The notes below the pieces were generated by a model. That model was not told the origin of the DNA. It worked only from the letters and a program-made list of their open reading frames with translations, and made no database searches. DNA of 35,342 bases, taken from the NCBI GenBank assembly GCA_025059745.1, contig JANXDH010000006.1, forward strand, positions 1 to 35,342, written 5' to 3'. Below are positions 31,197 to 35,342 of the stretch, in pieces (the first letter of the stretch is position 1; each line of letters begins with the position of its first letter). The position numbers were made by a program, and so were the translations under genes. The DNA is from Aigarchaeota archaeon. Lineage in GTDB: Archaea > Thermoproteota > Nitrososphaeria_A > Caldarchaeales > Calditenuaceae.

Positions 31197-31391
31197 ATGG
31201 TGTCCTCATCGGTTCGATTGCCGAAGGAAAGCCCGTATAGTCTTTATTCAATGATTGGCCGTATCACTGGAGAGCTAGGCTTCAATCGTAGACCTAGACA
31301 ATTCACTCAAATACCGCTTGATCAGATATTATCGAACACATCGGCAATACTAATAAATATTGCCCCAATTAAGCAGTTAAACGTATGCTGA
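31197..31391 (+). CDS. Doubtful 64-aa open frame
   Basis: A 64-codon frame from ATG to a TGA that overlaps the next gene's ATG (ATGcTGA arrangement). The product is polar, then hydrophobic at the end (SAILINIAPIKQLNVC). I recognise no family. The overlap looks like translational coupling, but the second promoter-like element inside it (31343-31364) argues that the next gene starts its own transcript. It may be a fragment of a decayed gene. Low confidence. Confidence 0.25.
   Translation: MVSSSVRLPKESPYSLYSMIGRITGELGFNRRPRQFTQIPLDQILSNTSAILINIAPIKQLNVC
31343..31364. promoter_or_regulatory. Inverted repeat flanking the TATA box of the 218-aa gene
   Basis: GGCAATA (31343-31349) and TATTGCC (31358-31364) are exact complements with an 8-nt spacer CTAATAAA, so the TATA-like AATAAATA lies across the centre of the repeat. 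The distance to ATG 31385 (about 27 bp) fits a leaderless start. A factor binding this palindrome would block the TATA-binding protein directly. Confidence 0.4.
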
Positions 31392-32041
31392 CCTGTGACG
31401 AGTTGCTTGGCGTCATCAGGATAGGTCGTAGGAACGGAAAAATAAGATTGCTGTCGAACGTAAAAAGGGGGTTGCTTTTCGCCGCTTTTAGCTATACTAA
31501 GAGAGGAAATTTTATAAGGAATCCAGTAGTCCTGAAGGCACTCAACCCTATTCTGGATTACCTGAAAGATGATAAGACGGAGGTACTTGCTGGCTCTTCT
31601 AATTATGGAATAGGAGTACAAGCGACCCGAGGCTCAGATATAAAAAGAGTTTCTAGGTCTGAGACAGATAACCGATATTTTCCTATGCGCCTTAAAGAAT
31701 ACGTTTACCGGTGCTTGAACAAGTTGTCCAGGAGTCCTGAAATAAAGAGGGAGGTCAATCCTTTGAACATACACATCTTGAGGCTATTGGTTAAGATTCC
31801 AGTTGAGGCGAGTAGTAATCTCCTCTCAGCCGCCACGAGGGTCGTAAGGGAGGTAATGGAGGCTATGAGTCCCAAGCTTAGGTTGATGAGAACAGGGTTG
31901 ACCCATGCATGGAAGAATAGTCAATTAGCTCAATTATGGGGACATAAGGATGCGTTGAGGTGGAGAGATGACCCCGCATACTCGTTGTACTGGGGGGCGA
32001 CCATAATGAACTGGCCGAAGGCCTTTGATACTCCTACGTAG
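31385..32041 (+). CDS. Uncharacterised 218-aa basic protein
   Basis: I do not recognise this protein. It is basic and rich in Arg/Lys in the first half (IRIGRRNGKIRLLSNVKRG). It has a helical middle (LLSAATRVVREVMEAM) and a tryptophan-rich end (AWKNSQLAQLWGHKDALRWRDD ... YWGATIMNWPKAF). No signal peptide, membrane helix or metal motif is evident. Codon use is intermediate between the backbone and the A+T-rich island. Its own TATA sits inside an inverted repeat. It precedes the nucleotide-sugar genes on the same strand, so it may belong to the surface-glycan island; it may also be a truncated gene, because coding-like fragments follow directly in other frames. Confidence 0.5.
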   Translation: MLTCDELLGVIRIGRRNGKIRLLSNVKRGLLFAAFSYTKRGNFIRNPVVLKALNPILDYLKDDKTEVLAGSSNYGIGVQATRGSDIKRVSRSETDNRYFPMRLKEYVYRCLNKLSRSPEIKREVNPLNIHILRLLVKIPVEASSNLLSAATRVVREVMEAMSPKLRLMRTGLTHAWKNSQLAQLWGHKDALRWRDDPAYSLYWGATIMNWPKAFDTPT

Positions 32042-32084: not shown

Positions 32085-32234
32085 GGCGATGATAGTCGGT
32101 ATAACGGGTCGTTTTTCAGGCCGACATTACGAAAGACCAATGACTCATTGGACAGAAACATAGAATTGATCTCTGGTGAAACATTGCAGGAAACTTTTGA
32201 CTTGCATTTCAATGAGGCGGTCCGCATTGGATAA
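32085..32234 (+). pseudogene. Possible C-terminal gene remnant
   Basis: Between the 218-aa gene and the sugar dehydrase, one frame is open for 49 codons up to TAA 32232-32234 and reads like real protein (RNIELISGETLQETFDLHF). It has no credible start codon and overlaps the first codons of the next gene. In the same frame, 32013-32084 reads RRIAENFCEPLPVHG before a stop. Another short frame (MIVGITGRFSG, from 32089) also looks coding-like. These are best explained as remains of one or more broken genes. I cannot name the family. Confidence 0.25.
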
Positions 32235-33528
32235 TGCACAGTTTCAACTTTTGAGTGAGATAGAAAAGCTACTGAGAGAGTATTATGAGAAAGAGCAAGA
32301 TAGGCGTCCATCAAATCGATATGAGATAAGAACTAACAGCGTGCTTTTTGATCATCGTGAGGTGATATCAGCACTTAAAGTACTTCTCAGTGGTTGGATC
32401 ACACAAGGTCCTTTAACTATAGAACTTGAAGAAAAGTTTGCGAGATATTATGGAGTAAAACACGCAGTATCTGTTAACTCAGGTTCGTCAGCGAACTTGG
32501 TGTCCATTATGGCGCTAGCCCATGACTCGCTGGGAAGCGAAAGAATAAAGCCAGGCGATGAGGTGATAACGTCACCCGTAACGTTCCCCACGTCGGTTTT
32601 TCCGATAATACAAGCTGGCGCTATACCCGTATTCATTGATGTGGATGAGACGATGTGCATGAGCGCTGATCTCGTTGAAGAAGCAATCTCTGACCGCACA
32701 AAGGCCATTTTACCAGTCCATCTTCTTGGTCATCCATGTGATATGCCCAAAATTCTCAAACACGGGTATCCTGTAGTTGAGGACGCTTGCGAGAGTCATG
32801 GTGCGGAATGTTACAGCAAAAAGGTTGGAGCGTGGGGAAAATTAGGTACGTTCAGCTTGTTTGCGGCTCACCATATAACGATGGGCGAGGGAGGGATGAT
32901 AGTGACCAATGACGATACGATAGCCGATTTAGCTCGCAGCATTAGGGCATTTGGTAGGGTCATCGACGTGGCTAGAGATCCATATGCGGCGCAAGAGTTG
33001 GGCACGCGTTGGAAAGAGTTATTTCCGGAGCTCGGACCATTTGATATAAGACAAACCTATGATAAGCTCGGCTATGGGTTAAAGATTACCGATATACAGG
33101 CTGCTATTGGATTAGAGCAGTTGAATAAGCTCGATAAATTTATAGAAGCTCGGAGGAGAAATGCAGAGTACCTCAGAAAGGGGTTGGAAGAGTTCAACCA
33201 CCTGATCAGATTACCAATAGAGAAAGATTGGGCTAAACATACCTATCATCACTTTGCTATCCTGGTCAGAGAGGACGCACCGTTCACAAGGCTAGAACTC
33301 GTTAACTATCTGGAAGCAAATGGTATAGAGACTAGACCCATTGAAGCTGGTAATATGGTTGATCAGCCTTGCATGAGAGGAGTTCGATATAGAGTCGTAG
33401 GCAATCTTAGGAACTCTCAGCTGATAAGGAAGAACGGATTCTTCATAGGCTGCCATCCAAGCTTGTCTAAAGACGACCTCGATTACGTAATTTTAACATT
33501 CGAAAACTTCTTTAGAGGTTACCGCTAG
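32212..33528 (+). CDS. RfbH/E1-type NDP-sugar 3-dehydrase (DegT family)
   Basis: A PLP/PMP enzyme of the DegT/DnrJ/EryC1 family, closest by eye to RfbH (CDP-6-deoxy-4-hexulose 3-dehydrase, E1), which removes the C3 hydroxyl on the way to 3,6-dideoxysugars. The usual PLP lysine is replaced by histidine in AAHHITMGEGG; this is His220 if translation starts at ATG 32212, the same number as in Yersinia E1. The ends also match RfbH (YRVVGNLRNSQLI, LDYVILTFENFF). Unlike RfbH, the loop after RAFGR has no cysteines, so the [2Fe-2S] site appears missing, as in ColD-type dehydrases. A GTG at 32176 would add 12 residues; I prefer ATG 32212 from family length (438 aa). Composition is A+T rich. Confidence 0.85.
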   Translation: MRRSALDNAQFQLLSEIEKLLREYYEKEQDRRPSNRYEIRTNSVLFDHREVISALKVLLSGWITQGPLTIELEEKFARYYGVKHAVSVNSGSSANLVSIMALAHDSLGSERIKPGDEVITSPVTFPTSVFPIIQAGAIPVFIDVDETMCMSADLVEEAISDRTKAILPVHLLGHPCDMPKILKHGYPVVEDACESHGAECYSKKVGAWGKLGTFSLFAAHHITMGEGGMIVTNDDTIADLARSIRAFGRVIDVARDPYAAQELGTRWKELFPELGPFDIRQTYDKLGYGLKITDIQAAIGLEQLNKLDKFIEARRRNAEYLRKGLEEFNHLIRLPIEKDWAKHTYHHFAILVREDAPFTRLELVNYLEANGIETRPIEAGNMVDQPCMRGVRYRVVGNLRNSQLIRKNGFFIGCHPSLSKDDLDYVILTFENFFRGYR

Positions 33529-33627: not shown

Positions 33628-33798
33628 GTGGCGGGGACCAGGACCGCGATTATAATAATAGCCTATTTGATCGGAATATACATTGGACGCGCTGATCCTG
33701 AAAGCCAACATCTTATGAGGCATACACAATGCTCGAAGTTAATGTCGTGCCTTGAGGTGATCATAGGGAATTGCCCGAGAGGTTTCTGTGTGCCCTAA
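33628..33798 (+). CDS. Small cysteine-containing membrane protein candidate
   Basis: In the 260-bp gap between the dehydrase and the GT4 gene, a GTG-initiated frame of 56 codons encodes a short N-terminal region, a hydrophobic segment (AIIIIAYLIGIYIG) and then a tail with four cysteines (TQCSK, MSCLE, GNCPRGFC). It resembles a small anchored or exported protein. The stop overlaps the longest version of the next gene. No TATA or convincing ribosome-binding site precedes it, so it may be a chance frame. The rest of the gap (33529-33627) shows nothing I can assign. Confidence 0.3.
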   Translation: MAGTRTAIIIIAYLIGIYIGRADPESQHLMRHTQCSKLMSCLEVIIGNCPRGFCVP

Positions 33799-33820
33799 AC
33801 CCAGCCCATCTAATGTTGTG

Positions 33821-35056
33821 ATGACCAGTAAGTCTAACCGAGTGATTGTATTGGGCGCTTCGCTTGCGAAAAAGGACGGTATCTCAAGAATAGTCTCGGA
33901 CCTTAGCGCGTTTCTTAAGGGACGATTAACGATTATTACGGACAGGTATCAACCATCCAGTACTTTTAGGGTGAGTGAGGAGAGTACCATAATAGAGTGC
34001 GGAATGTTATCGCTGAAAAATGATGTACTGAAGTACCTCCTCCCATTTATATTCAATACTGTTAAGATGGTCGTTCTATTAATAACAATGGCTGCAAAAT
34101 CAAGCGCTACAAGGCGTGATTTAGTTCTAAACACGCATACGTTCAAGGCGTTGATAGTAGCAGCCATTGCAAAAATAGCCCTGTTACGTCCCTCGAATGT
34201 TCGTCTTATTAGCGTCATTTACGACCTAGATGATTTCTTTTATTTTAAAGAGAGATTTAGAGGGATCTTCATGCTATTTTTATTGTTATTTCTACGGTTA
34301 AACGTGGTAGATCGTATAGTGGTTTTGGACAACAGGGTCGCTAAATCAATTGGAGAGGTAATACGACCTATTGGTGACAAAAAGATCTCTGTAATCAGAG
34401 TCGGAGTCAGCCCATCGCTATTAAAGCTAGCTGAAATGAATAATTTGTCTCCCTCACAAGAGATATCTCAATTATTAAGAGGGGCAAGCGGGGGTAAAAT
34501 CAAGCTCTTCTTCCACGCAATATTAATACCTCGTAGGAGGCTGGAAGATCTGTTGTATGCGCTTAACTTGGTCATAAAAACTAGAAAAGACGTAATACTG
34601 TTTATTGGAGGTTCCCTAAAAACTGACACTAATTATACTAATTACATTTTTCATCTTGTTGATAAATTATCATTAAATGAGTATTGCGTTTTTCTAGATC
34701 AATTGTCAGAGACGGACCTTGCTTACATGTACAAAACAATCGATATCTTCATTTTTCCTTGTGCGAATCAAACATGGGGCATCGCTCCGTTGGAAGCGAT
34801 GGTCTTCGGAAAACCGTGTATCGTCTCAACCGGTTCCGGTGTGTCTGAAGTATTGACAGAGGATCTTGCACTTTTAGTGCCTCCATTTAGCCCTGAAAAG
34901 ATTGCCGAGGCCGTTTTAAAACTTATAGAATCTGAAGAACTTCGAAATAGGATAGGTTCAGATGCTAGGACTCACGTGTTGAAGAGTTTGACTTTTGAGA
35001 GGACGGTGGATGAACTTGTTAGCTTATTCAATGAACGCGTATCCTACTCAAAATGA
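33821..35056 (+). CDS. GT4-family glycosyltransferase (island)
   Basis: A GT-B glycosyltransferase of about 411 aa. The N-terminal domain begins RVIVLGASLAKKDGISRIV, with a hydrophobic stretch (about residues 140-160) that may touch the membrane. The C-terminal domain has HAILIPRRRLEDLLYAL and FIFPCANQTWGIAPLEAMVFG. The first Glu of the E-x7-E motif is Gln here (Q-T-W-G-x4-E), as I recall in some archaeal GT4 enzymes. I prefer ATG 33821 over GTG 33788 because the extra residues (CPKPSPSNVV) are unlike a family start. It lies between a dideoxysugar-type dehydrase and a nucleotidyltransferase, so it probably transfers an island sugar to a lipid-linked glycan. Clearly A+T rich. Confidence 0.88.
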   Translation: MTSKSNRVIVLGASLAKKDGISRIVSDLSAFLKGRLTIITDRYQPSSTFRVSEESTIIECGMLSLKNDVLKYLLPFIFNTVKMVVLLITMAAKSSATRRDLVLNTHTFKALIVAAIAKIALLRPSNVRLISVIYDLDDFFYFKERFRGIFMLFLLLFLRLNVVDRIVVLDNRVAKSIGEVIRPIGDKKISVIRVGVSPSLLKLAEMNNLSPSQEISQLLRGASGGKIKLFFHAILIPRRRLEDLLYALNLVIKTRKDVILFIGGSLKTDTNYTNYIFHLVDKLSLNEYCVFLDQLSETDLAYMYKTIDIFIFPCANQTWGIAPLEAMVFGKPCIVSTGSGVSEVLTEDLALLVPPFSPEKIAEAVLKLIESEELRNRIGSDARTHVLKSLTFERTVDELVSLFNERVSYSK

Positions 35057-35089
35057 CGTCATGCCTCAAATATCTTTAATGGGCCGTTG

Positions 35090-35342
35090 ATGAAGGGCGT
35101 TGTACTTCATGGTGGATCGGGCACTAGACTTAGACCCTTTACATTCATTGGGCCGAAGCAGCTTATGCCAATCGCCAATAAGCCAGTCTCGGAGTACGTG
35201 GTGAGGGACTTAGTAGCCTGCGATATTAAGGAGATAGCGATAATTTTAGGCGGCACTCATCCTGAGCGCGTAAAAAACCATTATCGGGATGGCTCTTCTT
35301 ACGGGGTGAAGATCACGTACATAGATCAAGGGGAACCACTGG
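35090..35342 (+). CDS. Glucose-1-phosphate thymidylyltransferase (RmlA-like), 5' part
   Basis: The first 84 codons of a sugar-phosphate nucleotidyltransferase, cut by the right edge. The nucleotide-binding signature VLHGGSGTRLRPFT at the N-terminus and GPKQLMPIANKPVSEYVV are diagnostic. The VVLHGG form and the YIDQGEPL end match the archaeal/actinobacterial RfbA-like group that makes dTDP-glucose (or a related NDP-sugar). It starts 33 bp after the GT4 stop and would supply activated sugar to the cluster. The exact nucleotide and sugar cannot be fixed from this piece. Confidence 0.92.
   Translation, partial: MKGVVLHGGSGTRLRPFTFIGPKQLMPIANKPVSEYVVRDLVACDIKEIAIILGGTHPERVKNHYRDGSSYGVKITYIDQGEPL

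Follow-up and report, generated by a model that had tools for sequence, protein, structure and literature searches.

A gene in the window (by which we mean the whole stretch of DNA analysed, 35,342 nucleotides of a contig from an Aigarchaeota archaeon) on balance probably encodes a PMP-dependent, cluster-free NDP-4-keto-6-deoxyhexose C-3 dehydratase that would release its product by hydrolysis. We read it as a cluster-free C-3 dehydratase because it keeps the dehydratase state at 16 of the 19 columns that separate dehydratases from aminotransferases, because its predicted fold matches E1 and ColD while its counterpart of the E1 cluster loop has no cysteine, and because it shares the ColD states Glu194, Phe217 and Ala246 and has cluster-free relatives whose genes lie beside SDR genes in six of seven neighbourhoods. 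Counted against this reading are Lys291, which is the E1 state, His346, a pairwise score nearer to E1 than to ColD, the weak candidate 4,6-dehydratases of the genome, and one neighbourhood (L236) without an adjoining SDR.

Gene and predicted structure

The open reading frame is intact, starts with ATG and encodes 438 aa; an alternative GTG start lies 36 bases further upstream and would extend the product to 450 aa. Upstream of the gene, positions 31385-32041 hold a 218-aa ORF for which a Pfam scan at E 0.001 gave nothing. Features of the gene are as follows.

32212..33528, + strand: homologue of sugar C-3 dehydratases, cluster-free (PF01041; E1 and ColD are the closest structures solved)
32788..32793, + strand: codons of Cys193-Glu194, the Cys being shared with E1 and ColD rows
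32860..32871, + strand: codons of Phe217-Ala-Ala-His220, with His where aminotransferases have the PLP lysine
32953..33066, + strand: residues 248-285, counterpart of the three-Cys cluster loop of E1, without Cys (alignment, AF2 model)
33076..33078, + strand: codon of Gly289, which is Asn in 46/46 dehydratases and 11/12 aminotransferases

The protein belongs to the DegT/DnrJ/EryC1/StrS fold family (PF01041, 319.9 bits, gathering cut-off 19.8). Among solved chains it scores highest with E1 (3bcx, 297.6 bits) and next with ColD (2gms, 211.3 bits); PDB 9wvy, a putative NDP-4-keto-6-deoxyglucose-3-dehydratase, also matches (182.5 bits). Residue numbering coincides with that of E1, Cys193, Glu194, Phe217 and His220 standing opposite C193, D194, Y217 and H220; we take D194, Y217 and F345 of E1 to have active-site roles. 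The protein carries HHITMGEGG, and the E1 alignment bears out the initial annotation in matching this motif and His220, the catalytic histidine that replaces the PLP lysine, to E1/RfbH.

The AF2 model is confident (pLDDT 92.9, pTM 0.91). Its weakest part is the replaced loop (62-75 for residues 251-280), where helices are predicted at 252-255 and 257-270; N-terminal residues 1-10 and 31-40 are also lower (71-74). Of the solved folds E1 comes closest (TM 0.90; for 3bb8 Z 56.3, with rmsd 1.8 across 413 residues), with ColD (3b8x; Z 52.7, rmsd 1.8, 377 residues) and perosamine synthase (Z 50.6) also superimposing. As far as the model goes, this common fold does not settle the reaction. GDP-perosamine synthase (3bn1/3dr7), which likewise has Phe at the third position ahead of its catalytic residue, is an aminotransferase with the PLP lysine and not His.

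A loop without cluster cysteines

The E1 loop GRDCYCAPGCDNTC holds C251, C253 and C261 (by chain count), which together with C193 we take to be the ligand set of its cluster. The segment GRVIDVARDPYAAQELGTRWKELF of our protein aligns opposite this loop and has no Cys at all, just as had been noted initially, against a CxC..C pattern in the relatives compared. That the E1 cluster has four cysteines is also given in the available part of a review. As for cluster cysteines supplied from elsewhere in the protein, which the initial annotation had named as a finding that would undo its reading, no candidate set was found by alignment column: of the six cysteines (149, 176, 193, 200, 387 and 414) only C193 falls on a ligand column, and it is the only one of the four E1 cluster cysteines present. 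The columns of C149 and C176 have Cys also in 4/12 and 5/12 Lys-type aminotransferase rows; those of C200, C387 and C414 have it in 0, 0 and 2 of the 32 E1-clade rows and in 0/14 ColD-clade rows. The combination found in ColD, a catalytic His with a loop free of cluster cysteines, is present.

The loop pattern CxC..C was found in 80/80 cellular relatives (best ORF of the best 80 genome_contigs loci, which are those listed) and in 80/80 relatives on viral contigs. The latter are the best ORFs of the best 80 (L119-L198) among 303 stretches of predicted viral contigs that encode RfbH-type relatives. Judged from the alignments, absence of loop cysteines among these relatives is well beyond chance, yet it is not unique, being shared with 11 archaeal loci and with one member of the E1 clade, L217.

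Relatives of the protein

The phylum was searched in part, including a set of 256 genomes. The nearest relative among the genomes searched is L212, at 46% identity, and none above that value was seen in these phylum genomes or among the matches listed. Within the class of the source, 3 of the 44 genomes searched, the source genome among them, gave a match with E no higher than 1e-44; since the other two, L007 (2.6e-52) and L008 (2.3e-51), keep the PLP lysine, the gene looks isolated in its class. His-type relatives in the phylum comprise Cys-loop RfbH proteins, ordinary or re-spaced, the archaeal group without loop cysteines, L217 and L224. Plasmid matches came to 109 records, with sequence comparison from L199 alone, and phage matches to 11 records, the sequences of 3 of which were compared. 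A literature search, with ambiguous terms, did not find a cluster-free RfbH-type enzyme; we do not claim that none is in print.

The 11 archaeal loci without loop cysteines (L107, L110, L111, L118, L212-L216, L225 and the Haladaptatus plasmid protein L199) form a clade that groups with ColD in trees, and pairwise scores agree: L199 scores 281.5 bits with ColD vs 240.3 with E1, and L212 279.5 vs 254.8. For comparison, the bacterial ColD reference L057 scores 637.5 bits with 2gms, and L217 scores 326.5 bits with E1 vs 193.0 with ColD. One genome, G069, has two copies of the archaeal ColD-like gene (L111 and L118).

In 6 of 7 neighbourhoods (L230-L234, L236, L237) an SDR similar to the Haladaptatus oxidoreductase adjoins the archaeal ColD-like gene; in L236, the neighbourhood of L107, the nearest such SDR is about 3 kb off. 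Two SDRs adjoin in L230, L232 and L234, one LegB/RmlB-like (255-262 bits on LegB, below the cut-off of 475) and one GDP-fucose-synthase-like (267-294 bits, below the cut-off of 500), while the single SDR scanned in L233 was GDP-fucose-synthase-like and the one in L237 LegB-like. On the Haladaptatus plasmid the gene comes after genes annotated gmd and NAD(P)-dependent oxidoreductase. Since a review, in the part available, gives the colitose pathway set as a 4,6-dehydratase, a C-3 dehydratase and a reductase, these neighbours, which resemble that set, support C-3 dehydratase function for the archaeal clade. The support covers that clade and not the window gene directly.

Several His-type relatives are unusual in other ways. 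L217 (G490:C3:140167-141366) lies in the E1 clade and keeps Asp194, Tyr217, His220 and Trp-Phe while having no loop Cys; its neighbourhood (L235) includes RmlB (449.3 bits), a DegT aminotransferase and RmlA-long (417.7 bits). L224 (G783:C11:49877-51037) is a divergent DegT protein in which His occupies the PLP-lysine column, Ser stands in place of C193 and the loop, ECDCPICTRSKGYC, holds four cysteines; in the tree it branches off basally to the dehydratases, on a long branch. In L106, L112, L219, L222 and L223, which are archaeal and RfbH-type, the loop cysteines are re-spaced with no CxC, and their cluster ligands may differ from those of E1.

Family model and tree placement

The initial annotation had placed the protein on an RfbH scaffold. 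Taken as membership, this does not hold: the protein scores 398.2 bits with the NCBIfam RfbH model (NF011936), under its cut-off of 423, and it falls outside the E1 clade. Controls with the same model were an E1-type protein (L073, 783.1 bits), an archaeal variant (L106, 560.3), the cluster-free L217 (430.6), the archaeal ColD-like L212 (367.6) and L199 (356.0), ColD (L057, 267.3) and L224 (253.1).

Trees were built on a chosen subset of the 80 genome_contigs and 80 viral loci. The long-branched L202 and L003 were left out of every tree after the 48-row one, the truncated L225 was left out of the 59-row tree and of the tree without L224, and L224 itself was left out of one tree and of the residue counts. 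The C-3 dehydratase superclade (E1 and ColD), with our protein in it, stands apart from Lys-type aminotransferases at 100/100 in three trees and at 100/97 in the 59-row tree. In that tree, from which the loop columns were removed, the E1 clade (32 rows) excludes the protein at 100/99, and ColD with its archaeal relatives (13 rows) excludes it at 100/98. The safe statement, as the sequences place it, is thus membership of the superclade and a position outside both named clades as sampled.

Within the superclade, the protein was sister to E1 and ColD together at 87/55 (53 rows), 94/86 (59 rows) and 81/26 (L224 removed), and it joined E1 in the 48-row tree, where the loop was kept (86/34), and in the 46-row tree (52/16). 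Placement as sister to E1 was not rejected in the tree without L224 (p-AU 0.521), nor was placement as sister to ColD (p-AU 0.186 in the 46-row tree, 0.481 without L224). The sister-to-both placement is therefore not firm, since support drops without L224 and trees that set the protein beside E1 or ColD are equally good, but the protein seems, from these trees, to branch near the common root of the E1/RfbH and ColD clades.

Active-site residues

Residue states were compared across 46 dehydratase rows (32 E1-clade and 14 ColD-clade) and 12 Lys-type aminotransferase rows. The 16 dehydratase states kept include Cys193, His220 and Gly380-Asn381; column 220 is His in 46/46 dehydratase rows and Lys in 12/12 aminotransferase rows. 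At the ten columns that separate E1 from ColD, the protein has five E1 states (Phe125, Ala219, Met224, Lys291, Ala297), four ColD states (Glu194, Ala198, Phe217, Ala246) and one that is neither, so that ColD-clade states make up 4/10. Phe125, Ala297 and Ala198 are uninformative because each is also the commonest outgroup state. Glu194 is shared with 13/14 ColD-clade rows, whereas 32/32 E1-clade rows have Asp; Phe217 is shared with 12/14 ColD-clade rows. Lys291, the E1 state, contrasts with Arg in 14/14 ColD-clade and 11/12 aminotransferase rows, and His346 with Phe in 42/46 dehydratase rows.

The likeness to E1/RfbH (the bacterial CDP-4-keto-6-deoxyglucose-3-dehydrase, 3bcx/3bb8) takes in the fold over about 412 residues, the N-terminal stretch, His220, Cys193, HHITMGEGG and the states Ala219, Met224 and Lys291; the differences, besides the missing equivalents of C251, C253 and C261 and the place outside the E1 clade, are Glu194 for Asp, Phe217 for Tyr and Tyr345-His346 for Trp-Phe. 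Part of this likeness is probably ancestral, because GEGG and Phe125 occur in aminotransferase outgroup rows and the N-terminal stretch occurs in archaeal ColD relatives. With ColD (GDP-4-keto-6-deoxymannose 3-dehydratase, 2gms/3b8x) the protein shares the catalytic His, the loop without Cys, Glu194, Phe217 and Ala246, but it has GEGG and not MEGG/IEGG, Lys291 and not Arg, Gly289 and not Asn, an N-terminal stretch absent from the bacterial ColD rows of the alignment, and RmlA, RmlC-like and RmlD gene neighbours.

The protein could instead belong to the archaeal ColD-type clade, or be closely sister to it, and so in effect be an archaeal ColD with a divergent loop. The two are alike in being archaeal and lacking loop cysteines, Glu194 is found in 10/11 of the clade, the top identity among the genomes searched is to a clade member (L212, 46%), and grouping with ColD was not rejected (p-AU 0.186, 0.481). 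We nevertheless consider this unlikely: the tree puts the protein outside the 100/98 ColD clade, and it has none of the Trp125, Ser219, Thr224, Arg291 and Gly297 of the archaeal clade. Genes of that clade are often beside sugar-nucleotide SDR genes.

An artefact or pseudogene as the main reading is ruled out by the open frame and the confident fold. The protein does depart from the dehydratases at 7 positions conserved in at least 88% of the 46 rows (of these, 251 is alignment-dependent), and it comes from a single gene in a MAG, as would suit a non-catalytic or decaying copy; the full-length frame, the confident fold and the 16/19 dehydratase columns kept make such a copy highly improbable.

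Genomic context

The source MAG is 1.17 Mb in six contigs and 88.8% complete. Downstream of the gene the window holds the following.

33788..35056, + strand: GT4-type glycosyltransferase, a neighbour of the gene (PF00534)
35087..35342, + strand: start of an RmlA-long glucose-1-phosphate thymidylyltransferase extending beyond the window (full-length score 480.6 bits, cut-off 320.25)

Further downstream come an RmlC-like protein (PF00908, 43.8 bits, cut-off 27), another glycosyltransferase, RmlD (249.6 bits, cut-off 224.05) and another SDR. The same contig carries a Pus10 gene with an archaeal THUMP domain.

With RmlA-long and RmlD nearby, our first guess at the substrate is a dTDP sugar, a weak one since none of the nine SDRs found in the genome passes the RmlB cut-off; nor does any reach that for GMD or CDP-glucose dehydratase. 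A CDP-sugar context was considered and set aside, no CDP-glucose 4,6-dehydratase being above cut-off among the nine. A stretch of the SREVYG type was not seen in two of them (L204 and L208). On another contig, the SDR L207 has SREVYG, with the Glu placed as in the 4,6-dehydratase-like SDRs compared, and adjoins L209, a GDP-fucose-synthase-like SDR (G000:C3:130061-132098); it is a possible supplier of a 4-keto sugar.

An E3-type reductase is about 330 aa long. Four Fer2 matches were found in the 88.8%-complete genome, all in open frames of 163-243 aa, so that no E3-sized ORF is among them, an apparent difference from E1/RfbH systems; as far as an incomplete genome can tell, this fits the cluster-free reading. 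It also bears on the idea that the gene is an E1/RfbH descendant which has lost the cluster and whose adduct is still reduced, by electrons from an outside ferredoxin. E1 is the nearest PDB chain (297.6 vs 211.3 bits for ColD), Ala219, Met224 and Lys291 are E1 states, L217 shows that an E1-clade member can be without loop cysteines, and sisterhood to E1 was not rejected (p-AU 0.521). Set against the Fer2 frames, the 100/99 exclusion from the E1 clade and Glu194, however, these points leave such a descent very unlikely.

Proposed mechanism

ColD hydrolyses the PMP adduct and glutamate restores PMP, whereas E1 and SpnQ pass electrons to the adduct through a cluster, according to the available part of PMC8987622. 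In the accessible part of PMC10440746, 2-oxoglutarate was produced when Campylobacter ColD-type C3-dehydratases were supplied with PLP and glutamate, and oxygen-18 uptake showed that one oxygen came from water. Because without the loop ligands the cluster of E1 is not expected in our enzyme, hydrolytic release is likeliest. PMP and the 4-keto sugar would be joined as a Schiff base; His220 would deprotonate the PMP carbon and the hydroxyl at C3 would leave; the resulting 3,4-ene adduct would undergo hydrolysis instead of reduction, yielding PLP together with an enamine sugar, from which ammonia would be lost; and PMP would be restored by an amino donor, glutamate by analogy.

The donor is where the residues disagree. 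In a related aminotransferase, as the portion of PMC5936713 at hand describes it, the donor gamma-carboxylate is bound by Lys257 and His196; Lys257 equals Lys241 of ArnB and is Asn in PDB 2FNU and 3DR7, and His196 equals ArnB His185 and is Phe in 3DR7. We map ArnB Lys241 and His185 to columns 289 and 217 of our alignment, the first by inference; for 3DR7 the Phe three residues ahead of the lysine is visible in the alignment. By these mapped contacts Phe217 suits a glutamate cycle and Gly289 does not. With its column so mapped, the change of Asn289 to Gly is counted against a standard ColD glutamate cycle, although Asn289 must have another role too, as it is kept in E1, which needs no glutamate. 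Of the ColD-like, cluster-free PMP enzyme on an RfbH scaffold that had been proposed initially, the cluster-free PMP mechanism stays plausible, and it is fitted both by the ColD states found in columns 194 and 217 and by the four Fer2 matches, none of which lies in an ORF of E3 size; RfbH membership fell away, and a ColD-type glutamate cycle is not established, given the loss of an Asn kept throughout the dehydratases.

A same-fold PMP/PLP enzyme could also catalyse another reaction, such as epimerisation, or dehydration plus transamination to an amino sugar. The mixed residues would fit, as would Asn289Gly, His346 and Lys291 and the transamination that SpnQ performs without its reductase (reported in the available part of PMC8987622). 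The dehydratase hallmarks Cys193, His220 and Gly380-Asn381 are all kept, however, and we hold such a change of reaction to be somewhat unlikely. We know of no superclade relative that has epimerisation or dehydration plus transamination as its normal reaction.

Implications

The protein is of an ordinary kind, a deep cluster-free member of a known superclade, but its residues are mixed, Asn289 is oddly lost, and the combination is unusual. Beyond the cluster-free C-3 dehydratase that we favour, we put forward tentatively, as a possibility, that it represents a third lineage of C-3 dehydratases, split off before E1 gained its [2Fe-2S] cluster, retaining an active site of mixed E1/ColD character and, because the donor-pocket Asn289 is Gly, using PMP with an amino donor other than glutamate or holding glutamate in a new way.

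Some consequences are practical. The automatic name RfbH need not mean an iron-sulfur enzyme, since L217 passes the cut-off without loop cysteines. Related enzymes deoxygenate C-3 in two modes: E1 and SpnQ use a cluster and a reductase, and ColD uses hydrolysis and glutamate. A cluster-free lineage branching close to the root that they share, along with L217, offers natural test proteins for the change between the modes. If the third lineage is true, cluster-free hydrolytic dehydration would be the ancestral chemistry, and the reductase-linked chemistry of E1 would have been added later.
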